Position numbers and translations under genes: made by a program
Notes under the pieces: model-generated
Databases searched by the model: none
What the model was told of the DNA's origin: nothing
The model's input: only the letters and a program-made list of their open reading frames with translations
Origin: a virus
Direction: 5' to 3' (one strand)
DNA length: 53,490 nucleotides
Virus record (IMG/VR): IMGVR_UViG_3300032116_000274
Location: 1 to 53,490 of that record
Part shown: positions 13,410-45,522 of the stretch, one piece after another
Layout of the letters: the number at the start of each line of letters is the position of its first letter
How positions within the stretch are numbered: the stretch's first letter is position 1

Positions 13410-13417
13410 CATAAATA
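13410..13417 (+). promoter_or_regulatory. Late promoter upstream of gp13, inside a hairpin
   Basis: CATAAATA matches the T4 late consensus at seven of eight bases. It overlaps the 5' arm of an 8-bp inverted repeat, ATATCCCC (13415-13422) and GGGGATAT (13427-13434). The predicted start near 13423 falls in the loop, so late mRNA would lack the 5' arm. The 3' arm contains the AGGGGA ribosome binding site of gp13. Confidence 0.7.
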
Positions 13418-13438
13418 TCCCCACAAGGGGATATTTTC

Positions 13439-14200
13439 ATGAGCAGCACACTGGATTTGAAGCAAGGAATCATAGATGACGTTACCCGATTACTCGGGGG
13501 CTCAATGGTGGAAGTGGAATTGGACCCAGGAGATTTTCAACTGGCGCTTCAGATTGCTCTCGATCGTTATCGTCAACGCAGCTCCAATGCAGTGGAAGAA
13601 GCATATGCTTTCTTGGAAATGCAACCTGAAACAACAGAGTATTACCTCCCACAAGAAATTGTTGATGTAAGGCAAATCTTTCGCAGAGGCTTGGGCGGTA
13701 ACACTGGTGGCACTTATATTGATCCCTTCAGTTTAGCTTATACCAATCTCTACCTCCTGCAAGCTGGAGCAGGAGGCGGCTATTCAGCAGGCTTGTTGAC
13801 TTTTGAACTCTTTTATCAGTATCAGGAGCAAGCTGGCCGGATGTTTGGTCGCGATATCAACTATCATTTCAATACCGTAACCAAAAAGCTTACCATTATT
13901 CGCCGATTGCTCAGTGATGAAACTGTGCTGTTATGGGTCAACAAAATGAAGCCTGACGACATGATTATCTTGGATCCTTTCAGTAAGCCTTGGATCAGAA
14001 GTTATACTTTGGCAGTGGCCAAAGGCATGCTGGGAGAAGCTTACAGCAAGTTTGGCCAGATAATTGGCCCACAAGGTGGTTCTACGCTCAAAGGCGATGC
14101 TCTCAAGACTGAATCAGTTGCAGAGATCGAAAAACTAGACCTTGAACTCTTGCAATATGTGGATAACGGAACTCCATCCAGCTTTGTAATTTTGGGTTAA
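13439..14200 (+). CDS. gp13: gp13-like neck protein
   Basis: Head-completion/neck protein of the T4 gp13 type, 253 residues, which forms the collar ring above the tail. The layout fits marine T4-like gp13: an N-terminal domain (IIDDVTRLLGG, then DFQLALQIALDRYRQ), the segment YYLPQEIVDVRQIFRRG near 70, YHFNTVTKKLTIIR near 140, and a C-terminal block with WIRSYTLAVAKGMLGEAYSKF followed by LKGDALKTESVAEIEKLDLEL near 220. Start at 13439 behind AGGGGAT. It opens the late structural block and is separated from its usual partner gp14, which sits on the opposite strand at 4090-5184. Confidence 0.75.
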   Translation: MSSTLDLKQGIIDDVTRLLGGSMVEVELDPGDFQLALQIALDRYRQRSSNAVEEAYAFLEMQPETTEYYLPQEIVDVRQIFRRGLGGNTGGTYIDPFSLAYTNLYLLQAGAGGGYSAGLLTFELFYQYQEQAGRMFGRDINYHFNTVTKKLTIIRRLLSDETVLLWVNKMKPDDMIILDPFSKPWIRSYTLAVAKGMLGEAYSKFGQIIGPQGGSTLKGDALKTESVAEIEKLDLELLQYVDNGTPSSFVILG

Positions 14201-15157: not shown

Positions 15158-15165
15158 CATAAATA
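15158..15165 (+). promoter_or_regulatory. Late promoter upstream of the tail sheath gene
   Basis: CATAAATA, identical to the gp13 promoter octamer. AAATATC (15161-15167) and GATATTT (15174-15180) form a 7-bp inverted repeat around the predicted start near 15171. GAGG before the sheath ATG lies just outside the hairpin. Confidence 0.7.
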
Positions 15166-15194
15166 TCCTACAAGATATTTTTGATGAGGTACAA

Positions 15195-18100
15195 ATGGCC
15201 AATCTAACAAGCCCTGGAGTTCAAGTACAAGTAATAGATGAGAGTTTTTATGCCAGTTCGGGCCCTGGCACAGTACCATTCATTATGATGGCTACTGCAC
15301 AAGACAAGCCTCAACCAGGCAACACCACTAGCGTTGCTGCTGGAACAATCAAAGCCAATGCTGGAAAGCTTTACAGAATCACCAGCCAGAGAGAATTGCT
15401 TCAAACTTTTGGCAATCCCAAATTTTATACCCAAGCTGGCACGCCACAGCATGGTAACGAACTAAATGAGTATGGGTTGTATTCAGCTTACCAATACTTG
15501 GGCTTGGCCAACAGCGCCTATGTTATGCGGGCTGATGTGGACTTGGCTGATCTAGCGCCAACAGGAACAGAACCTGTTGGAGAGCCAGTAAATGGCGACT
15601 ATTGGTTGGACTTGACTGAAACCTCCTGGGGCTTGTTTAGGAGCAATGGCAATGTCAACAGCGGTTTGGCATGGGGAGCATTGCGCCCCAAAGTAATTGA
15701 CACTGCATCACAGCTTCAACGAATTGTTCAATGCTTCCGTGAAACACAGTGCACTAATCCCAATCTCTCTATCGTGACTCCTGGTGGTAATGGCACACTA
15801 ACAATTGCAGGTGTGCAAATAACCATAGGGTTGACTGACACTTTGAACACCATAGTTCAGACAATCAACAGCAATACTACCTTGAGCAAGAAAGGCATCA
15901 AAGCTGAGATTTACAGCCGACTTGAAAAGCTTAAGGTTGTGGCACCTGCGGTGCCTACCGAAACCACGGTCTACAATCTCCGGTTGGTGGGCAGTGATAT
16001 CAATGTGGAAATCAGTGTAGATTCAGCACCAATTTCCTTGCTTACTGATCTAGGTTTTGTCAACTCACAAATTGCACCTTTGGCCAACAACAAACCACAG
16101 CACAATTACATTGTGCCCTTGAATGAATTTGGCACAAATGGTGATTTGGCTGTGAATGCAGTAAGTGTTGTAAAAGGTCTCAGCAACACTGTTTTGGTGC
16201 CCTCAGTGCAAATTTTTGAAAAAGTCAGCCAAACAACAGCTCAAGGAACAGTAAGTCGCTGGTATCCAGTGGGTGGCACTGAAACTGACTATCCTGGGCA
16301 CAGTTGGGCAGCAGCATCACCCACTGTTGTCAGCAGTGGTGAACCAGTTATAGGCCCATTTGTAACCGGAACAAGTACACTTTTTCATATTGTGGGTGCT
16401 ACTACTACATCTTATACTATCAATGTGCCCAACACTACCTTAGAGGCGTTTGTTACCAATATCAATACTCAGTTGGCTGCAACACAAATTTTAGCCACAA
16501 CATTCACTGTTGGAACAAACAAGTACCTGCGACTAACTGACTACAGCGGCAATACTATCCAATTACTAGATACAACTACCAGCAGTGGATTGGGTGGATT
16601 TGCCACTGCAAAGATGAACATTTCAAGCACATATTACAAAAGTGTAACAGGATCGGTTGTAAACCCCTCATTTGTGAGTAGTGCTGCTCCCCCAGCACCA
16701 CTTACACAAATTATAACTATTACAGCTGGCTATGGCGTAGGAAGTGTTACTGCAAATATAAATGTTGCCAATCAAGCTCCTGCAATCACAACACTGGATG
16801 ATGTAGTTGCGAAAATCAATGCAGATTCTATAGTGGGTTTAACAAACTTGGTAAAGGCTGAAAAAACAGCTGACAATAGACTTCGAATCTATAGTCCTAC
16901 CGGCACTTTGTTTTCGCTGTCAAATGCTGTGGGATATGCAGGCACTGCACCCTTAGTATCTGCTGGCATTCCTACTGGAATAACTTATGGTAATAGCTTG
17001 GTTTATCAAGGCTACAGCGTGGGCACACCACAACCAGCTGAATTGAGCCAAATTGCAGCCGGTAACATTTGGGTCAACACTGTAAGCGGGAATCGCGGTG
17101 CCAACTATGTTGTCAAGAGATACAACAGCGGTACAAACATTTGGAACAAGCGTTTGGCTCCTTTGTATGCAAACGACGCCAGTGCCACTGCTGGATATGG
17201 TGCAAATCGCACAGTAGGCAGCATCTACGTCCGCTATAATGAAACTGGTCCAGAAGTACAAGACCAAACTGGTGTATTCTTGGTGAAAATTTGGGATGGC
17301 ACCGCATGGACTACTATTCCTGATTATGTCATAAGTACAGCAGACTTTGGAGATAAATACACTCAAAGCAGCTCTACGCCCAGTGGCTTGCCTGAAGATG
17401 GCACACTGTGGTATAATGCCAATTTGAGAGTTGATTTGATGGTAAGCGATGGCAGCATTTGGAAAGGCTATCGCCAACTCTATACAGAAACTGATCCCAA
17501 TGGCCCAATCCTTAGCGCAACTGCACCCACTACACAGTCTGGTGGCTTGCCATTGGTTGACAACGACATTTGGATTGACACAAGTGACCTAGAAAATTAT
17601 CCCAAGATCTACAAAAGAGATGCGTTCAACAGCCAGTGGCTATTGGTAGACAACACTGACCAAAGCAGCAGCAATGGCATCTTGTTTGCTGACGCACGCT
17701 GGACTGCAAATGGCACCAGCACAGGCAGTCAAGCCATTGTGGACATGTTGTTGAGCGATACTGTAGATCCTGATGCTCCCAGTGCATTGCCTTATCCTTT
17801 TGGATTACTGCTGTTCAACACACGCTACAGCTTTGGTAATGTCAAAACCTACAAAGTAAATTACCTACCGGCATCTGTGAATAACCAACCTAACTACGAC
17901 AGAAATCGTTGGGTAACCGCAAGTGGACTTATGAACACGGGTGCACCGTACATGTTGCGCAAGGCTCAAAGACAGCTGATTGTTACTGCTATGGCCAGTG
18001 CATTGGCAGCAAGTCAAGAACTGCGGAGTGAAAGCAATGTGTTCAACTTAATGGCTGTGCCTGCATATCCTGAGCTTTTGGACGAAATGGTTACTTTGAA

Positions 18101-18909: not shown

Positions 18910-18938
18910 AAAAACCGGAGCTCACTGCTCCGGTTTTT
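18910..18938. terminator. Bidirectional intrinsic terminator
   Basis: AAAAACCGGAG (18910-18920) and CTCCGGTTTTT (18928-18938) pair perfectly around a 7-base loop, with T-runs on both strands. It ends the sheath mRNA and, from the other side, the homing endonuclease mRNA, whose stop codon lies in the loop. Confidence 0.9.
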
Positions 18939-20565
18939 CATTAAGCCATATCCATTTACTGCTACCGCAATCCCAAATCCTGTTCCAACCTTGAGCCTTG
19001 CGATTTTCCCATTCTGTCAAGGCTGGATCATCTTGTGAGTTCTTGCGCAAGCTAAATCTGTGCAGTCTTGTAATATTTGGTACCTTGAAATACCAATAAT
19101 TTGGCGTACCTAAACTTATGCAAGTAAATCCCAATTGTTCATAAACTGTTCCTTGATTCCATCTTAAATCACAATAACTTATAATTTGTTTTGGATGGTA
19201 ATTGGTTACAAAATATTTGAATAGTTTGCCTGCTCCACCCATAACTTGTGTTTTTGTGATACTGCACAACCTACTCAATTCCCAGACATCTGCCCCCGTG
19301 TTCCGAGAACCTTTGCTGATATTGGGTTGACTGAAAGTTGCCACTTGGACCAATTGTTCTCCATAATATAGTCCCAAGCAAATCTTGCTGGCCCCATTGC
19401 CTTGAATATGATTTTGCGTACAAAAGTCACGGGCTATTGTGGCATCAATGGGTTTCACCATGCATTTTCTTGCAGCAATTTTGTTCTGACATATACCTAG
19501 TATATGTTGTAGCCTGCTTTTTACTATGTCTTGTTTGGTTAACCATTCATCTTCAAAAACAGTAATCAAGGATATTCCTTGGGCAGCACATAATTCTTTT
19601 TTGTTTTTGTGATAATTTTTATCTTTCCCCTGTAGTTCACTATGCCAATATAGCCCACAATATTCCACTGCAAGGTTCCTGTGTGGAATCAGGATATCCA
19701 GTTCCAAGGGAAAGATAGTTGATCGGTTGCCACTTAAAACAGTTTCGTGTGGCAAAACGGATCGGATCCAGCTCAGCAGCTCAAGTTCAGCATTGGACTT
19801 AACGGGAATTGGTCTACAAACAGGGCAAATGTCTTTGCGCCATTTGGAAATGGTGAAATATTGTTTTGTAATAGAGAATTGATTGTTACATGCAATACAT
19901 TTAACAAATACATTTTGACCTTCCACACTCTCATACAATAAATTTGCATCAGAAATTGCTTGTAACATTTTATCATTGCTCAACATTGATTTTTTCAATG
20001 CAGACAAGCGACTGCTTGCACTGATTTTGTTTTTGGTTGTTTGCGAGTGTTTTTTGCCACGCATATGACTCCCAAAATCATAACCTTGCTCTTGCAAGGT
20101 TTGTTTGGCTTTTGCTGCTCGTTGTTTCATCAATTCTGGATTCTGCTGTGCGTAATCTTGCACTCCTTGGCTGATCTGATTCCTAGTAGAGGGGCTCAAT
20201 ATGGCCCCTTTTCTGGGATGTGTATCATTCTGCTGCCATTTGATAGTTCGTGCTGCAACAGCTTTGCGTATGTTTTCAAGATGATTAGGATCAGTTACTT
20301 TCTGGCCTTTGTTTGCCGGAATTTTACCTTCCCTCTTTTCACTCATTTTTTGTAAGCTGGCTTGCGCATGTTTCTTACCAAACATGCCGTTTTTTTCGCC
20401 GCTGCGCTCTAAACTAAGTTGTTTTTTGTAGTCCGCACAAGCTAAGCTGTCACGCCCAAATTTTTGTCGGTATTGTTCACTACTTATTTGATGAGAGAAT
20501 TTCAAATGAGTGCTGCTGATAATCTTGTCAAATATTTTTTCACACAACTTACACGTTATGGTCAT
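18922..20565 (-). CDS. Free-standing homing endonuclease, NUMOD3 plus EDxHD (Vsr-like) type
   Basis: A selfish endonuclease that would cut phage genomes lacking it, 547 residues. An N-terminal Cys/His finger (CKLCEKIF, then HLKFSH) is followed by NUMOD3-like DNA-binding repeats (GEKNGMFGKKH near 55, MRGKKHSQTTKNKIS near 170), a second zinc site (CIACNNQF and CPVC near 220-250), then a Vsr/PD-(D/E)XK-like nuclease with ELDILIP, LAVEYCGLYWHSE and FEDEWL around 285-340. Spacing fits the EDxHD homing nuclease family. The start at 20565 follows AGGGG, with a late promoter upstream. It lies on the opposite strand between the sheath and tube genes, a typical invasion site next to conserved genes. 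Cleavage specificity is unknown. Confidence 0.82.
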   Translation of the reverse strand: MTITCKLCEKIFDKIISSTHLKFSHQISSEQYRQKFGRDSLACADYKKQLSLERSGEKNGMFGKKHAQASLQKMSEKREGKIPANKGQKVTDPNHLENIRKAVAARTIKWQQNDTHPRKGAILSPSTRNQISQGVQDYAQQNPELMKQRAAKAKQTLQEQGYDFGSHMRGKKHSQTTKNKISASSRLSALKKSMLSNDKMLQAISDANLLYESVEGQNVFVKCIACNNQFSITKQYFTISKWRKDICPVCRPIPVKSNAELELLSWIRSVLPHETVLSGNRSTIFPLELDILIPHRNLAVEYCGLYWHSELQGKDKNYHKNKKELCAAQGISLITVFEDEWLTKQDIVKSRLQHILGICQNKIAARKCMVKPIDATIARDFCTQNHIQGNGASKICLGLYYGEQLVQVATFSQPNISKGSRNTGADVWELSRLCSITKTQVMGGAGKLFKYFVTNYHPKQIISYCDLRWNQGTVYEQLGFTCISLGTPNYWYFKVPNITRLHRFSLRKNSQDDPALTEWENRKAQGWNRIWDCGSSKWIWLNEKPEQ

Positions 20566-21045: not shown

Positions 21046-21053
21046 CATAAATA
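21046..21053 (+). promoter_or_regulatory. Late promoter of the tail tube gene
   Basis: CATAAATA, the same octamer as before gp13 and gp18. The expected start near 21059 leaves a leader of about 27 bases with TGGAG before the tube ATG at 21086. No hairpin is seen here. Confidence 0.7.
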
Positions 21054-21085
21054 AGTTTGCAATAAACAAGTTTCTGGAGTAGAGC

Positions 21086-21667
21086 ATGGTAGAGACTCTT
21101 TCAAAATTCGGCGTTCCCATCAACGGTGCAAGAAATGGCTTGCTCATGCCGAAGATCAAACATCGCTTCCGTGTGCGTGTTATCAATTTTGGTCCCATTG
21201 CTGGCGGTTTGGAGCTCACACAACAGGTAGTGAGTGCTGCTCGGCCCAATGTAAGCATGAACAGCGTTGAGGTACACAGCTACAATTCCATTATGCATTA
21301 CGCTGGCAAGGCCACTTGGCAACAAATGCAGATTACTGTGCGTGATGATATCACCAACAGTGTCAGCAAGCTTGTGGGTCATCAGCTTCAAAAGCAAATG
21401 AACTTTTTTGAACAAACCAGTGTTGCTGCTGGTATCAATTACAAGTTCACAACTATTCTTGAAATACTTGATGGTGGTAATGAAACAGTGTTTGAAACTT
21501 GGACACTGGAAGGCTGTTTCCTTGAAACAGTGGATTATCAGACTTTGGAATACAACAGCAGCGACCCTGTGGACATTCAGCTTACAGTGAGATTTGACAA
21601 TGCCACACTTGCTGACGGATTGTTTGAATTGAATCCACAATTTAGAGCTGGTGTCAGCATAGGATAA
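21086..21667 (+). CDS. gp19: Tail tube protein gp19
   Basis: Major subunit of the inner tail tube, 193 residues against 163 in T4. The family pattern is visible: an N-terminal strand region with FRVRVINFG, VSMNSVEVHSYNSIMHYAGK near 60-75, TWQQMQITVRDD near 76-87, VFETWTLEGCFLETVDY near 140, and a closing IQLTVRFDNA near 165. The ATG at 21086 follows TGGAG. It forms a late unit with the next tube-like gene four bases downstream. Confidence 0.88.
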   Translation: MVETLSKFGVPINGARNGLLMPKIKHRFRVRVINFGPIAGGLELTQQVVSAARPNVSMNSVEVHSYNSIMHYAGKATWQQMQITVRDDITNSVSKLVGHQLQKQMNFFEQTSVAAGINYKFTTILEILDGGNETVFETWTLEGCFLETVDYQTLEYNSSDPVDIQLTVRFDNATLADGLFELNPQFRAGVSIG

Positions 21668-30184: not shown

Positions 30185-31258
30185 ATGAAACCGATGGACT
30201 TATCCAAATTCCGGAAGGATATTGCTAAGAGCATTCCTGGCTTGTCAGTGGGCTTCCGTGATCCCAAAGTGTGGATCTCAACTGGTAACTATGCACTCAA
30301 CTACGCTATCTCTGGTAAGTTCCAAGATGGTGGGATTCCTTTAGGCAAAGTAACCATGCTGGCTGGCCAAAGTGGCAGCGGCAAATCCTTCTTGGCTTCT
30401 GGCAACTTAACTGCAAACGCACAAAAGAAGGATGTGTTTGTGGTATTGGTTGACACTGAAAATGCTTTGGATGAAGCTTGGCTGAAAGCTCTTGATGTAG
30501 ACACATCAGAAGACAAGCTTTTGAAGGCCAACTTGGCAATGATTGATGACGTTGCCAAGCTGATTTCAGATTTCATGAAAGACTACAAAGCTCGTTACGG
30601 CAGTGTTGCTGAAGAAGAACGTCCTCGAGTACTTTTTGTGATCGACAGTTTGGGTATGTTGCTTACTCCAACTGACGTAAATCAATTTGAGGCTGGTGAG
30701 CTCAAAGGTGATATGGGCAGGAAGCCTCGAGCACTAGCTGCTCTAGTGAGAAATTGTGTAAACATGTTTGGTGAGTATGACATTGGCATGATTTGCACAA
30801 ACCACAGTTATGCAAGTCAAGACATGTTCAATCCAGATGATGTAATCAGTGGTGGACAAGGCCCAATCTATGCCAGCAGCATTGTTCTTGCTATGCGCAA
30901 GCTCAAGCTCAAGGAAGATGAGATGGGCAACAAAACCACTGACGTCAAAGGTATCCGTGCTCAGTGCAAAGTCATGAAAACCCGCTACAATCAACCATTT
31001 ACTTCGGTCGAGGTTAAAATCCCCTACGATCGTGGCATGGACCCCTATAGCGGTCTATTTGACCTCTTCCAACAAAAAGGGTTAGTGATTAAAGACGGCA
31101 ATAAGTGGTGCTATACCGCTTTAGACGGCAGCCAAATCAAGAAGTTTGAAAAGGCTTGGGACAGAAACGAGGATGGCTGTTTGGATAAAATTATTGAAGA
31201 ATTCCATTTACGTCCTAAGGGTTCCATGAACCCCTCTGCTGACCATTTAGAGGAATAA
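30185..31258 (+). CDS. uvsX: UvsX recombinase (RecA-like)
   Basis: Strand-exchange protein of the RecA/Rad51 family, phage UvsX type, 357 residues (T4: 391). Walker A is GQSGSGKS at 61-68, the catalytic Glu is in VVLVDTENALDE near 92, Walker B is VLFVIDSLG near 150, and L2-like MICTNHSY near 200 is followed by VISGGQGPIYASS. It assembles on ssDNA with gp32 and UvsY for recombination-dependent replication. ATG behind AAGGAAA. No terminator directly follows; a hairpin and late promoter then lead into the homing endonuclease gene. Confidence 0.93.
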   Translation: MKPMDLSKFRKDIAKSIPGLSVGFRDPKVWISTGNYALNYAISGKFQDGGIPLGKVTMLAGQSGSGKSFLASGNLTANAQKKDVFVVLVDTENALDEAWLKALDVDTSEDKLLKANLAMIDDVAKLISDFMKDYKARYGSVAEEERPRVLFVIDSLGMLLTPTDVNQFEAGELKGDMGRKPRALAALVRNCVNMFGEYDIGMICTNHSYASQDMFNPDDVISGGQGPIYASSIVLAMRKLKLKEDEMGNKTTDVKGIRAQCKVMKTRYNQPFTSVEVKIPYDRGMDPYSGLFDLFQQKGLVIKDGNKWCYTALDGSQIKKFEKAWDRNEDGCLDKIIEEFHLRPKGSMNPSADHLEE

Positions 31259-31268
31259 GTTACATAAG

Positions 31269-31314
31269 CCTCAAGACTAGATACTAAATATCTATTGAAG
31301 ATCTAGTCTTGAGG
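31269..31314 (+). promoter_or_regulatory. 14-bp hairpin covering the SD of the homing endonuclease, late promoter in its loop
   Basis: CCTCAAGACTAGAT (31269-31282) and ATCTAGTCTTGAGG (31301-31314) are perfectly complementary around an 18-base loop. The loop contains the late promoter ACTAAATA (31283-31290), with its predicted start near 31296. The 3' arm ends in GAGG, the ribosome binding site of the ATG at 31321. uvsX read-through mRNA would hide this site, whereas late mRNA lacks the 5' arm. The same logic is known for T4 I-TevI and a few other T4 genes. Confidence 0.8.
31283..31290 (+). promoter_or_regulatory. Late promoter of the GIY-YIG-like homing endonuclease
   Basis: ACTAAATA, lying in the loop of the 14-bp hairpin. 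The predicted start near 31296 gives a leader of about 25 bases that keeps GAGG but loses the masking arm. Confidence 0.65.
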
Positions 31315-31320
31315 TTATGT

Positions 31321-32154
31321 ATGCAATCAAATAATACAATCCCATTTGTCTATAAATGGACAGAAATCTCAACTGGTATGTGGTATATTGGTGCTCGATT
31401 TGCGACCGGATGCCATCCAGATGATGGATATATCTGTTCAAGTAAAATTGTTAAACCTAAAATATTAAGCAACCCTTCTGATTGGGTTAGGGAGATATTA
31501 GCAGTTTGTGAAAGTCCAGCGATGGCTCAAACCCGCGAATCAGAAATACTGCTTGAGGTAAATGCTGCTAAAGATCCACAAAGCTACAACCAAACAAACG
31601 GTGATGGTAAATTTCATCGTTGTGGTCCGCACCGGTCAGAGTCTATTAGCAAAATGAAAATGCTCAAAGCCGGTGAAAGAAATCCTATGTATGGCAGACC
31701 CGGCCCTATGAAAGGAAAGAAACACAAAGAAGAATCGAAAAAAAGGATTGGCACAGCACAAAAAGGCCGAATCACTACTAGTGAACATGCACAGAAAATC
31801 AGCCAATCTCTTACAGGCCTATCATGGATCAACAATGGAATTGAAAGTAAGCGCATTGATATACCTACCTCCAGTATACCTGAGGGGTGGAGGCTAGGTA
31901 TGTTACCAGAGCATGCCGAAAAATTAGCTGAGTCTCGCAAGGGCGAAAACCATTGGAACTATGGGCAATCACACAAAGATGAAACAAAGAATAAAATTTC
32001 TGCATCCTTAAAAGGTAGAAAAGATTCTCCGGAAGTCTGCCTGAAAAAGAAACTTAGTAATGCACTTAGGCCAAAAATGATTTGTTTGGGTTGCGGAAAG
32101 TCTTATCTATCTTGTCACAAACGGTATCATTTATCGTGTAACGCCCCTCTATAA
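31321..32154 (+). CDS. GIY-YIG-like homing endonuclease with NUMOD3 repeats
   Basis: A free-standing homing endonuclease, 277 residues. The N-terminal 80 residues resemble the GIY-YIG nuclease fold in variant form: VYKWTEISTGMWYIGAR, then GYICSSKIV, WVREILAVC and the catalytic Glu in TRESEILLE. Downstream are NUMOD3-type DNA-binding repeats: GERNPMYGRPGPMKGKKHKE near 118, KGRITTSEHAQKISQSL near 145 and NHWNYGQSHKDETKNKIS near 212, and it ends with a zinc-finger-like CLGCGKSY. The ATG at 31321 is placed 6 bases after GAGG. It sits just after uvsX, a common invasion site, and appears translationally silenced until late, as argued for the hairpin. Confidence 0.8.
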   Translation: MQSNNTIPFVYKWTEISTGMWYIGARFATGCHPDDGYICSSKIVKPKILSNPSDWVREILAVCESPAMAQTRESEILLEVNAAKDPQSYNQTNGDGKFHRCGPHRSESISKMKMLKAGERNPMYGRPGPMKGKKHKEESKKRIGTAQKGRITTSEHAQKISQSLTGLSWINNGIESKRIDIPTSSIPEGWRLGMLPEHAEKLAESRKGENHWNYGQSHKDETKNKISASLKGRKDSPEVCLKKKLSNALRPKMICLGCGKSYLSCHKRYHLSCNAPL

Positions 32155-32171
32155 AAATGAAGTATTTACAG

Positions 32172-32204
32172 GCGGGACAATTTGTCCCGCTTTCATTGTT
32201 TTGA
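32172..32204 (+). terminator. Intrinsic terminator after the homing endonuclease
   Basis: GCGGGACAA and TTGTCCCGC form a compact hairpin (32172-32190), followed by the T-rich TTTCATTGTTTT. It separates the uvsX/homing endonuclease unit from the bL33 gene. Confidence 0.75.
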
Positions 32205-32246: not shown

Positions 32247-32438
32247 ATGGCAAAAGCAGCTACAGTTATTGTAATGCTAGTGAATCAAGAACATGATACC
32301 CCCACCAAATACATGACTCATGTAACCACAAAGGGCACAAAAGCGGGAGAAAAACTCCGTTTGAGAAAGTATGACCCTGTGGTACAAAAACACTGTTGGT
32401 TTGGTCAAAAAAAGCTACCTTCGCCAAAATCCCGCTAA
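32247..32438 (+). CDS. rpmG: Ribosomal protein bL33 (phage-encoded)
   Basis: A 63-residue protein that reads as bacterial large-subunit protein bL33 (E. coli: 55 residues). The N-terminus MAKAATVIVMLV parallels the first strand, HVTTKGTKAGEKLRLRKYDP matches the family signature TTKNKRTKPEKLELKKFDP, and VVQKHCWFGQKKL matches VVRQHVIYKEAKI at the end. It is the zinc-free type, with no CxxC pairs. bL33 sits near the E site of the 50S subunit. AGGAG lies upstream of the ATG, the next gene starts 15 bases after the stop, and that gene is an RlmN-like rRNA methyltransferase. Together they suggest a small ribosome-altering cassette. Phage-encoded ribosomal proteins are known, mostly bS21 and bL12. 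Confidence 0.82.
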   Translation: MAKAATVIVMLVNQEHDTPTKYMTHVTTKGTKAGEKLRLRKYDPVVQKHCWFGQKKLPSPKSR

Positions 32439-34384: not shown

Positions 34385-35197
34385 ATGATCAAACTGTTTT
34401 TTGCCATCTCAGCTGTTTTGCTGGTATTCAATAATGCATATGCACAACAAATTCCTCCTAGGCCATTGGAAGCGTGCTTAACAGAAGCACCTTGGGGCTT
34501 TCCCAATGCAGCCTTGCCCACAGGACAGCCTATTTGTAGGATGGCATATGCCTTGCTACATGACAATAGAGCCAAAATACCTTTGTGGACTGTCTATACC
34601 TTAACTCCAGAAAAGGCTATGGGTTGTGGTAAGCGCAGCGATGCTTTCTCTCCAGATCAAAGCTTGCCTCGCGGAGAAAGAGCTGAACTAGGCGATTATC
34701 GTGCAAGCGGTTACGATACAGGGCATATGGTGAATTCTGCAGACATGCTGTGGAGCATAACTGCTGAGCGGGAAAGCTTCATTCTCAGCAACATGAGTCC
34801 GCAATTGCCCAATGTCAACAGAGGTCCATGGAAAACTCTTGAAACAGGTATAAGAGGCTGGACACAGCAAACTGGCGATACATACACAATTTACAGTGGC
34901 AACATTTATGACGCCAGCACTGCCAAAACCATTGGCCGCAGTGCTGTGGTTGTGCCCACTGGCCTTTGGAAAGTTGTGGTGAGTCATCGTTCTGGAGAGG
35001 CGTGGGCCTTTTTGTTTCCCAACCAGCCCAACATCTCTACAGACTTAAAGAGCTTTCAAGTAACTGTGGCTGAACTGGAAGCGGCTATAGGTTATGAAAT
35101 TCCCATGCCAGGCAACAAAAACACTAAACCCCTGTTGCTTCCAGTCCGTAGTGTAAGTGAGGCGAGGCAAGCAGTTTGCACCTTGCCTCAGCGATAA
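34385..35197 (+). CDS. Secreted DNA/RNA non-specific endonuclease (NUC1/Serratia type)
   Basis: A beta-beta-alpha-metal nuclease of the Serratia nuclease family with a signal peptide (residues 1-20, cut after NAYA), 270 residues, so it would act in the periplasm or outside the cell. The active-site block reads GYDTGHMVNSADM at 109-121. The catalytic His114 is kept but the usual DRGH Arg is Thr112. The metal-binding Asn region is visible as NMSPQLPNVNRGPWKTLE near 140. It could degrade host or foreign DNA in the periplasm or salvage nucleotides in phosphate-poor water, alongside PstS. TACAAT at 34373 may be its -10 element, with the start close to the ATG. Confidence 0.82.
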   Translation: MIKLFFAISAVLLVFNNAYAQQIPPRPLEACLTEAPWGFPNAALPTGQPICRMAYALLHDNRAKIPLWTVYTLTPEKAMGCGKRSDAFSPDQSLPRGERAELGDYRASGYDTGHMVNSADMLWSITAERESFILSNMSPQLPNVNRGPWKTLETGIRGWTQQTGDTYTIYSGNIYDASTAKTIGRSAVVVPTGLWKVVVSHRSGEAWAFLFPNQPNISTDLKSFQVTVAELEAAIGYEIPMPGNKNTKPLLLPVRSVSEARQAVCTLPQR

Positions 35198-43518: not shown

Positions 43519-44976
43519 ATGAACAAGACTGCAACAATAACTATTCAAGACGAGGTCAACATTCAAATCACAGGTATTGATTTACCTGTTAAAAGAGCAT
43601 TGGTAAATTGTGTCAAATATTTCTTGCCGTCAGCTCGGTATAGCCCTGCCTTCAAAATGGGAAGATGGGACGGTACCACGAGCTTTTGTACTCTTGGAGG
43701 CAAAACCTATCTTAATATTTTGGACAGGCTGCTGCCTGTGCTGCAAGATCATGGATATGAATTTGAAATTGATGACCAGCGAGCAGCCCATAACACAGAA
43801 TTTTCTCCTATTGATGAAAATTTTCTCAGCGAGTTACACTGGCCTGTAGGGCATAGATTTGCAGGGCATCGCATACAACTACGGGACTATCAGGTAGAGG
43901 CTATCAATAACTGCCTACAAAACCCACAGGGAGTAAATGTGCTTCCCACTTCAGCGGGCAAGACCATCATCACAGCCTCACTCAGTAAAATTGTGGAATC
44001 CAAAGGAAGAAGCATTGTAATTGTGCCCAACAAAAATCTTGTGCAACAAACAGAAGAAGACTATCGCAATATTGGTTTGGATGTGGGTGTGTTGTTTGGA
44101 GACAGAAAAGAATATGAGCACGCTCACACTATCTGCACATGGCAAAGCTTGAATGTCTTGGACAAAAAGAACAAAGACTGTCTCGATGGAGACCAGTTGG
44201 AAGTATTCATGAAAGATTTGGTATGTGTTATCTGTGACGAATGCCACGGTGTAAAGGATTTGAATGTGTTACATCAGCTGCTCACTAGTGTGTTCAAAAA
44301 CATTCCCATTCGCTGGGGACTCACAGGCACTATTCCTGAGGAAGAATACAAACAAGTGGGGTTGTTCACAGCCATAGGACCACAAATTGGTAGCTTAACT
44401 GCCAAAGAGCTCCAAGACAAAGGTGTTCTTGCACAGTGTGATGTCACGTGTTTACAAACACAAGAAACTTTTCAGTATGGAAACTATCAGGAAGAGTTGA
44501 AGTTTTTGGTTACAAATGATGAACGGTTAGCATGGATGGCAAAAACCATTGAAACCATTGCTGAGAGTGGCAACACACTTGTACTTGTGGACCGTATTGA
44601 AACTGGACAAAAACTCTATAATCAGCTCAGTGGTGCAGTGTTCATTTCTGGAGAAATGAAAGCCAAGGATCGCAGAGAGCATTACAAAGAAATCAACTTC
44701 AGCGATAACAAAATCATGGTAGCAACCTATGGCACAACATCTACTGGCATCAGCATCAACAGGATTTTCAATCTAGTGCTTGTGGAAGCAGGCAAAAGCT
44801 TTGTGCGAACTATTCAAAGCATTGGTAGGGGCCTAAGGATGGCTGATGATAAAGATCGGGTACAAATTTATGATATCAGCAGCAAGATGAAATTCAGCAA
44901 CAGCCACCTCAACAAAAGAAAACAATTTTATAAAAAAAGCGAGTATCCGTTTGAGGTGAAAAAAATACGTTACTAA
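43519..44976 (+). CDS. uvsW: UvsW helicase (SF2)
   Basis: Recombination and replication-switch helicase of the T4 UvsW type, 485 residues (T4: 503). An N-terminal domain (residues 1-100; FKMGRWDG near 45) precedes the helicase core: Q-motif-like LRDYQVEAI near 121, Walker A LPTSAGKT at 142-149, motif II DECHG at 240-244, motif III LTGT near 272, and motif VI QSIGRGLRM near 433. It unwinds branched DNA and R-loops. An early promoter lies upstream. The stop codon lies within the 5' arm of the hairpin that regulates the next gene. Confidence 0.92.
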   Translation: MNKTATITIQDEVNIQITGIDLPVKRALVNCVKYFLPSARYSPAFKMGRWDGTTSFCTLGGKTYLNILDRLLPVLQDHGYEFEIDDQRAAHNTEFSPIDENFLSELHWPVGHRFAGHRIQLRDYQVEAINNCLQNPQGVNVLPTSAGKTIITASLSKIVESKGRSIVIVPNKNLVQQTEEDYRNIGLDVGVLFGDRKEYEHAHTICTWQSLNVLDKKNKDCLDGDQLEVFMKDLVCVICDECHGVKDLNVLHQLLTSVFKNIPIRWGLTGTIPEEEYKQVGLFTAIGPQIGSLTAKELQDKGVLAQCDVTCLQTQETFQYGNYQEELKFLVTNDERLAWMAKTIETIAESGNTLVLVDRIETGQKLYNQLSGAVFISGEMKAKDRREHYKEINFSDNKIMVATYGTTSTGISINRIFNLVLVEAGKSFVRTIQSIGRGLRMADDKDRVQIYDISSKMKFSNSHLNKRKQFYKKSEYPFEVKKIRY

Positions 44977-45012
44977 TGTGATTATCACTTTAAATATTTG
45001 ATATCACATTAG
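44973..45012 (+). promoter_or_regulatory. 10-bp hairpin with late promoter in its loop, before gene 45022
   Basis: CTAATGTGAT (44973-44982) and ATCACATTAG (45003-45012) are perfectly complementary. The loop holds TTTAAATA (44989-44996), whose predicted start near 45002 lies at the loop's end. The 3' arm runs into AGGAA, the ribosome binding site of the next gene. The arrangement mirrors that at 31269. Confidence 0.7.
44989..44996 (+). promoter_or_regulatory. Late promoter for gene 45022
   Basis: TTTAAATA inside the hairpin loop. Transcripts starting near 45002 would lack the 5' arm and expose AGGAA. Confidence 0.5.
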
Positions 45013-45021
45013 GAACTTCCT

Positions 45022-45522
45022 TTGAGAATTTTGACCACAAACAATCAGGCGTACGACTTGAATCAACTTCCTGAAAAAGTTGACGATTTGAGATATTGTG
45101 TGCTGGACTACAGTGACAGCCACAATATTGACTACTATTGGTATCCATTGATATTCTTGGATATTTTTCATAGCCCTTGTGCAGATATCAAGATTGGTCC
45201 CTACAACATCCAAATGCCCTTGGATTGGAGCATTGTGGTGGGAGACAAACACGCTGGTGATCTAGAGATCATGAAGCTAGTTGACCTAAATGACAAGGAT
45301 TTTGACGCATTTTGCATCAATCCTATAAAAGGTTACATGCCAGATTTCTGCAATATTGAAATCTTGAATGTTTTTAGTGATGTCAAGTGGTATTTTCCCA
45401 GATTAAAAAATGGTCACATTCTGGCATTTCCGCTCACACAAGGCAGCAACCCACCTTGTGTGTTTTTTGTCAAAGAGTTGGGCAAACTGCCAGATCAATT
45501 GGATATTCGACAACTGGTTTAG
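45022..45522 (+). CDS. Conserved-type unknown late protein
   Basis: A 166-residue protein, start TTG at 45022, 7 bases after AGGAA. The sequence around the middle (MPLDWSIVVGDKHAGDLE, FDAFCINPIKGYMPDF) and end (VKWYFPRLKNGHILAFPL) resembles a family I recall in marine T4-like phages next to uvsW, but no function is known. It is compact alpha/beta with no membrane segments. Expression looks restricted to late mRNA by the hairpin above. Confidence 0.65.
   Translation: MRILTTNNQAYDLNQLPEKVDDLRYCVLDYSDSHNIDYYWYPLIFLDIFHSPCADIKIGPYNIQMPLDWSIVVGDKHAGDLEIMKLVDLNDKDFDAFCINPIKGYMPDFCNIEILNVFSDVKWYFPRLKNGHILAFPLTQGSNPPCVFFVKELGKLPDQLDIRQLV

Follow-up and report, generated by a model that had tools for sequence, protein, structure and literature searches.

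We find that a free-standing GIY-YIG-like homing endonuclease gene of a jumbo phage is very probably controlled by a T4-type late promoter that sits inside a hairpin masking the gene's own ribosome-binding site. The DNA analysed (the window) is a stretch of 53,490 nucleotides (nt), a 53-kb IMG/VR virus record that represents a fragment of a jumbo phage of the T4 superfamily and carries uvsX, a gp32-type ssb, a uvsW-type helicase, terminase, sheath, tube and neck genes; features lie on the plus strand unless stated otherwise. The uvsX-like recombinase gene (30185-31258; PF00154 RecA, 6e-16; phrog_97 UvsX-like, 7.5e-69) is nearest, among named phages, to those of, for example, Phosso, PBECO4 and Munch, and an inverted repeat starts 10 nt past its stop codon. 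Within this repeat CCTCAAGACTAGAT (31269-31282) pairs with ATCTAGTCTTGAGG (31301-31314) to give a perfect stem of 14 base pairs (bp) that encloses an 18-nt loop, ACTAAATATCTATTGAAG (31283-31300). An outer stem adds a further 6 bp beyond a bulged G (31268), with ACATAA (31262-31267) paired in the centroid fold to TTATGT (31315-31320), the latter abutting the start codon of the endonuclease. The Shine-Dalgarno (SD) sequence of the gene, GAGG (31311-31314), forms the 3' end of the 14-bp stem and is separated by 6 nt from the ATG at 31321, while the promoter core TAAATA (31285-31290) lies within the loop (ACTAAATA). In T4 late promoters the +1 position falls six nt after the last A of TAAATA, and applying this spacing gives a predicted start at 31296, likewise in the loop. 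The preliminary description of this DNA, made from the letters alone, had placed and described these elements correctly, namely a perfect 14-bp stem over GAGG with TAAATA and the predicted start in the loop.

The stability of the hairpin and its effect on the SD were then computed. The region 31240-31340 folds with a free energy of -29.4 kcal/mol (z -5.1), which none of 200 shuffled sequences equalled. In RNA reading through from uvsX, 12.3 kcal/mol is needed to open the SD GAGG, whereas in late RNA the cost is 2.2-2.8 kcal/mol for every start from 31294 to 31303; hence the loss of masking is independent of the exact start site. The 5' arm, which is present in the read-through RNA only, accounts for this difference, as removing it computationally from that RNA brings the opening cost of 12.3 kcal/mol down to 1.6 kcal/mol. 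When other upstream segments were joined to the same downstream RNA, a cost of 12.3 kcal/mol was reached by none of the 257 segments that precede other TAAATA-bearing genes and by none of 2,000 shuffled segments (0 of 2,257 controls overall). The earlier proposal of a late promoter inside a hairpin that masks a ribosome-binding site is thus borne out by the calculation.

There is good circumstantial support for TAAATA acting as a late promoter in the window. Ten TAAATA sites lie 14-75 nt upstream of the 41 SD-bearing genes, and the motif precedes virion genes such as those for neck, sheath and tube. In the window, in its closest relative (G001), in G003 and in Phosso, TAAATA ranks first in frequency among its 15 anagrams at this distance before SD-bearing genes, exceeding the typical non-overlapping anagram about 3-fold or more. 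Each of the seven jumbo relatives in which it was looked for encodes a gp55-type late sigma factor.

The gene downstream of the hairpin (31321-32154) encodes 277 amino acids, with its start at ATG 31321 as opposed to the TTG at 31309 given in a mechanical list of open reading frames. Its product matches the phrog_314 homing endonucleases (4.4e-28), NUMOD3 in five stretches (6e-17) and, at 0.015, the I-TevI domain, in agreement with the earlier assignment as a free-standing GIY-YIG-like enzyme downstream of uvsX. From a signature of the form VYKW-x10-YIG, with Y11, Y22, G24 and E73 invariant in six proteins, the enzyme appears to carry the GIY-YIG catalytic residues. The gene and its hairpin move together: endonuclease, hairpin and TAAATA are all absent at the empty site in relatives L013-L019, in which (for example L013-L017 and L019) uvsX is ∼92% identical and a terminator follows directly. 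In the window the same element, a GCGGGACAATTTGTCCCGC hairpin with a T-rich stretch 3' of it (32172-32190) that is likely the original uvsX terminator, is found after the endonuclease, and the cassette therefore lies inside the uvsX transcription unit. Two further relatives, L402 and L404, share with the window a longest identical stretch of 1155-1178 bp (30946 to 32101 or 32124) that holds both hairpin and gene, compared with 7-9% divergence at 29.5-30.5 kb. Divergence returns downstream of the identical block in L404; L402 stays similar in that flank too, which makes its right boundary less sharp. Judged from these comparisons, the identical block of ∼1.2 kb fits the footprint expected of recent homing with co-conversion.

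A second late promoter in a hairpin is present before another gene of the window, and here the arms could be followed through the relatives. This hairpin (44973-45012) has TAAATA (44991-44996) in its loop and the SD AGGA at the base of its 3' arm, and it precedes a phrog_11279 gene (45022-45522; 166 amino acids, TTG start) located after the uvsW-type helicase gene. Among 26 distinct relatives' sequences with TAAATA at that place the arms differ completely yet still pair, as in CCTGCC/GGCAGG, TCTCCTGA/TCAGGAGA and CCTGGCA/TGCCAGG. The masking index, defined as the SD opening cost in read-through RNA minus that in the predicted late RNA, averages 3.76 kcal/mol when each sequence keeps its own arm versus 1.08 kcal/mol with the arm of another relative (p 3e-5, n = 26), and against shuffles 12 of the 26 are individually below 0.05 (Fisher 2.5e-11). 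The compensatory stem changes looked for in relatives are therefore seen at this second gene, with arms that change together and pairing that is kept. No TAAATA precedes the phrog_11279 gene in a distant group of relatives (L141 onward), nor is there one within 45 nt before its start in Munch and Atu_ph07.

Taken together, we propose that a mobile endonuclease cassette would have been inserted between uvsX and the uvsX terminator, bringing with it a stem that covers the cassette's own SD and has a late promoter in its loop. RNA from uvsX read-through would fold the full stem, with GAGG hidden and no translation, while a gp55-type sigma factor would direct RNA from near 31296 that has no 5' arm and cannot form the stem; with its SD open, this late RNA would allow the endonuclease to be made late. 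The stem, the position of the motif, the masking loss in late RNA, the sigma gene of the relatives and the co-mobility of hairpin and endonuclease in this scheme are computed or observed. In its transcripts and their start site, and in the repression and late synthesis of the endonuclease, the scheme would follow the experimentally established T4 cases by analogy. Several points count against it. The hairpin is identical in all five known copies, which thus hold no stem changes from which covariation could be judged at the endonuclease gene itself. Gene order is the basis for assuming read-through from uvsX, and T4 spacing that for placing the transcription start; the SegE GIY-YIG match of the protein (0.002, 18.8 bits) falls under the Pfam cut-off of 25 bits. 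Finally, the raw count of TAAATA in the window is at chance, with 21 sites compared with 18.4 expected.

This last count favours a reading in which TAAATA is a chance hexamer and the hairpin keeps endonuclease translation low at all times. We regard that reading as very unlikely, given that TAAATA is enriched by position before genes, that gp55-type sigma genes are present in the jumbo relatives, and that the arrangement with the motif in the loop is repeated at 44991 and conserved in relatives. It is about equally hard to credit that the inverted repeat is a terminator of uvsX, or a stabilizer of the 3' end of its mRNA, with the promoter and SD overlap incidental. Although a stable hairpin that begins 10 nt past the uvsX stop could be taken in this way, what follows the 3' arm is TTATGTATG and not a U tract, and relatives that are free of the endonuclease have no hairpin, their uvsX being followed by GCGGGACAAAATGTCCCGC, the window counterpart of which is located after the endonuclease. 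An intrinsic terminator was accordingly rejected, as there is no U tract after the stem and the real terminator lies 3' of the endonuclease.

The palindrome could also act at the DNA level, as an operator or as a recognition site of the endonuclease, in the manner of the operator of I-TevI, which overlaps that gene's late promoter. Such a role could coexist with one in RNA; as an explanation of the palindrome we consider it improbable, for a DNA operator has no need to pair with the SD, and the promoter region is no more similar to the L014 or L018 empty site than are shuffled controls. By the same comparison an autorepressor operator of the I-TevI type was rejected, the promoter region being unlike the empty homing site.

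As a late promoter within an SD-masking hairpin, the endonuclease locus is ordinary in kind, a further case of a known control class. In the reviews PMC2988022 and PMC3014915 the arrangement is described for I-TevI, I-TevII, I-TevIII, the free-standing T4 segB and Aeh1 mobE, being implicated for segB (GIY-YIG) and shown for mobE (HNH), and structures that mask the ribosome-binding site are described for T4 e, soc, 49 and others. Seven free-standing endonucleases appear promoter-less in the count of the T4 review (PMC2988022), and T4 segA, a GIY-YIG endonuclease gene, adjoins uvsX and targets it (PMC2988022, T4 record). Since segB, mobE and segA are already described, neither being free-standing nor lying next to uvsX is new, and the novelty that had been suggested for a free-standing case falls away given T4 segB and Aeh1 mobE (PMC2988022, PMC3014915).

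The individual systems share some features with the window gene and differ from it in others. T4 segB is likewise a free-standing GIY-YIG gene with a late promoter within an SD-masking hairpin (index 5.0 kcal/mol), but it lies among tRNA genes and not after uvsX, its sequence is different, and computed masking is stronger at the window endonuclease. Aeh1 mobE is also free-standing, with its SD sequestered by a hairpin on read-through RNA and a late promoter (PMC2988022, PMC3014915), although it encodes an HNH enzyme and is inserted in nrdA. The T4 I-TevI and I-TevII genes and genes e, 49 and 26 have the same promoter-hairpin logic or a structure masking the ribosome-binding site, yet the first two are intron-encoded and the other three are phage genes proper, whereas the window endonuclease is free-standing. 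T4 segA shares its GIY-YIG type and uvsX neighborhood with the window endonuclease; a hairpin of this kind is not described for it in PMC2988022 and PMC3014915, nor is it listed by our masking scan. A nucleotide search of named phages with the hairpin region gave no meaningful match.

Delaying homing endonucleases until late had been put forward as a general phage policy, a claim for which we find no support. Among 13 related endonucleases elsewhere there is one clear late-promoter hairpin, that of Sinorhizobium phage phiM12 (L394, upstream of 383), where TACTAAATAACTCCGAA...TTCGGAGTT precedes a Seg-like homing endonuclease with a difference of 9.8 kcal/mol; this hairpin is predicted only, and the protein is ∼24% identical to the window endonuclease. 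The endonuclease of phage 3M has an SD hairpin without TAAATA, and most of the 13 have nothing resembling a late-promoter hairpin. At the endonuclease loci of the jumbo genomes described below there is no strong case, with differences of at most 3.4 kcal/mol and some of the starts uncertain. For homing endonucleases "recurring option" fits better than "general policy".

To place the locus on a genome scale, the masking index was computed for each TAAATA-preceded gene in T4 and in five jumbo genomes, three of which (G003, Phosso and PA5oct) were scored short of their last base. Gene calling relied on a simple script, and single entries may therefore carry wrong starts; the null was obtained by exchanging upstream segments between genes within one genome. 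In T4 the blind scan gave eight genes with a difference above 4 kcal/mol, six of which (I-TevI, I-TevII, segB, e, 49 and 26) are literature cases. A single T4 inverted repeat between genes 26 and 51 (116428-116479) has late promoters on both strands and masks the SD of both divergent genes; gene 26 is reported in the literature, and a mention of gene 51 was not found in the parts of it covered. Over the five jumbo genomes together, 4 kcal/mol is exceeded by 40 of 227 genes, compared with 216 of 4,540 with swapped upstream segments (odds ratio 4.3, p 7e-12), and the device is therefore widespread in the jumbo group. Phosso is the strongest of these genomes, with 14 of 51 genes above 4 kcal/mol; PA5oct, G003 and G001, each taken alone, are not significant in the rank test. 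Roughly one in six late promoters of the jumbo group is masked, with perhaps a quarter of those expected by chance.

The phrog_11279 gene, which lies under the second hairpin, is unusual in its start codons and its predicted fold. In relatives L089-L139 the apparent start codon is ATT (6), ATA (5) or ATC (2) in 13 of ∼53 distinct upstream sequences, usually with AGGAG 7 nt before it and often with no in-frame ATG, GTG or TTG since the preceding stop. These starts are reminiscent of the AUU starts of infC and pcnB. The predicted structure of the product (mean pLDDT, the predicted local distance difference test, of 77; residues 17-44 poor) gave matches of which the first 38 listed are almost exclusively intein or Hint domains, with Z up to 10.2 and 129 residues aligned at 3.5 Å. 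Searching solved structures by sequence with phrog_11279 gave no match, and Foldseek matches are weak (best E 0.011, TM ∼0.36); because Foldseek alone is weak, we treat the Hint fold as a strong lead, not an identification. The fold starts at intein residue 6 and is therefore without the splicing nucleophile. On this model the gene, standing alone downstream of uvsW, perhaps preserves a domesticated intein.

These results allow a broader, tentative suggestion, which we put at somewhat under an even chance, that masking forms a genome-wide layer in jumbo T4-superfamily phages, covering about one in six late promoters including those of the neck gene and of a conserved stand-alone intein-fold gene with AUA, AUU and AUC starts in many relatives, and that mobile endonucleases are merely users of it. 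What is new here is the approximately four-fold excess at jumbo late promoters and the kept hairpin before the phrog_11279 gene; the endonuclease locus alone adds one well-formed jumbo-phage case to a control known since the 1980s. A simple computed index turns such anecdotes into a testable question at genome scale, namely how large phages keep late proteins from being made off early read-through RNA.

Masking of virion genes in the window is suggestive. The neck (head-tail adaptor) gene (13439-14200) is preceded by a 10-bp hairpin (13412-13436) with the GGGG SD in its 3' arm and TAAATA overlapping its 5' arm, a very tight overlap of promoter, hairpin and SD (TAAATATCCCCACAAGGGGATATTTTCATG, 13412-13442), and opening the SD costs 14.5 kcal/mol in read-through RNA versus 0.4 kcal/mol in late RNA. 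Masking of the neck gene is strong (10-14 kcal/mol; three close relatives only, conservative null). In a weaker case before the tail-tube gene (21048-21086; TAAATA at 21048) the pairing partner of the SD is CTCTCTCC, immediately 5' of the promoter; four of the 10 distinct upstream regions of tube genes have at least 4 kcal/mol, and two pass the shuffle test. The weakest case is before the tail-sheath gene (15160-15195; TAAATA at 15160), where two of 19 orthologs reach 4 kcal/mol, which is not significant. Masking as a conserved trait of the tube and sheath genes was rejected on these counts.

Other genes of the window merit brief mention. Between the sheath and tube genes, on the minus strand, lies a second homing-endonuclease-like gene (18922-20565) with a NUMOD3 motif fused to a DNA-modification domain of the Mom family. 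A 63-amino acid protein matching ribosomal protein L33 (4e-7) is encoded at 32247-32438, with the uvsX/endonuclease pair on one side and a radical-SAM gene on the other; it is also present in, for example, L013-L017. A DNA/RNA non-specific endonuclease (34385-35197; Endonuclease_NS, 4e-46) has an N-terminus resembling a signal peptide, and the product of 5199-6371 matches a phosphate transporter subunit family (phrog_5385, 6e-65).
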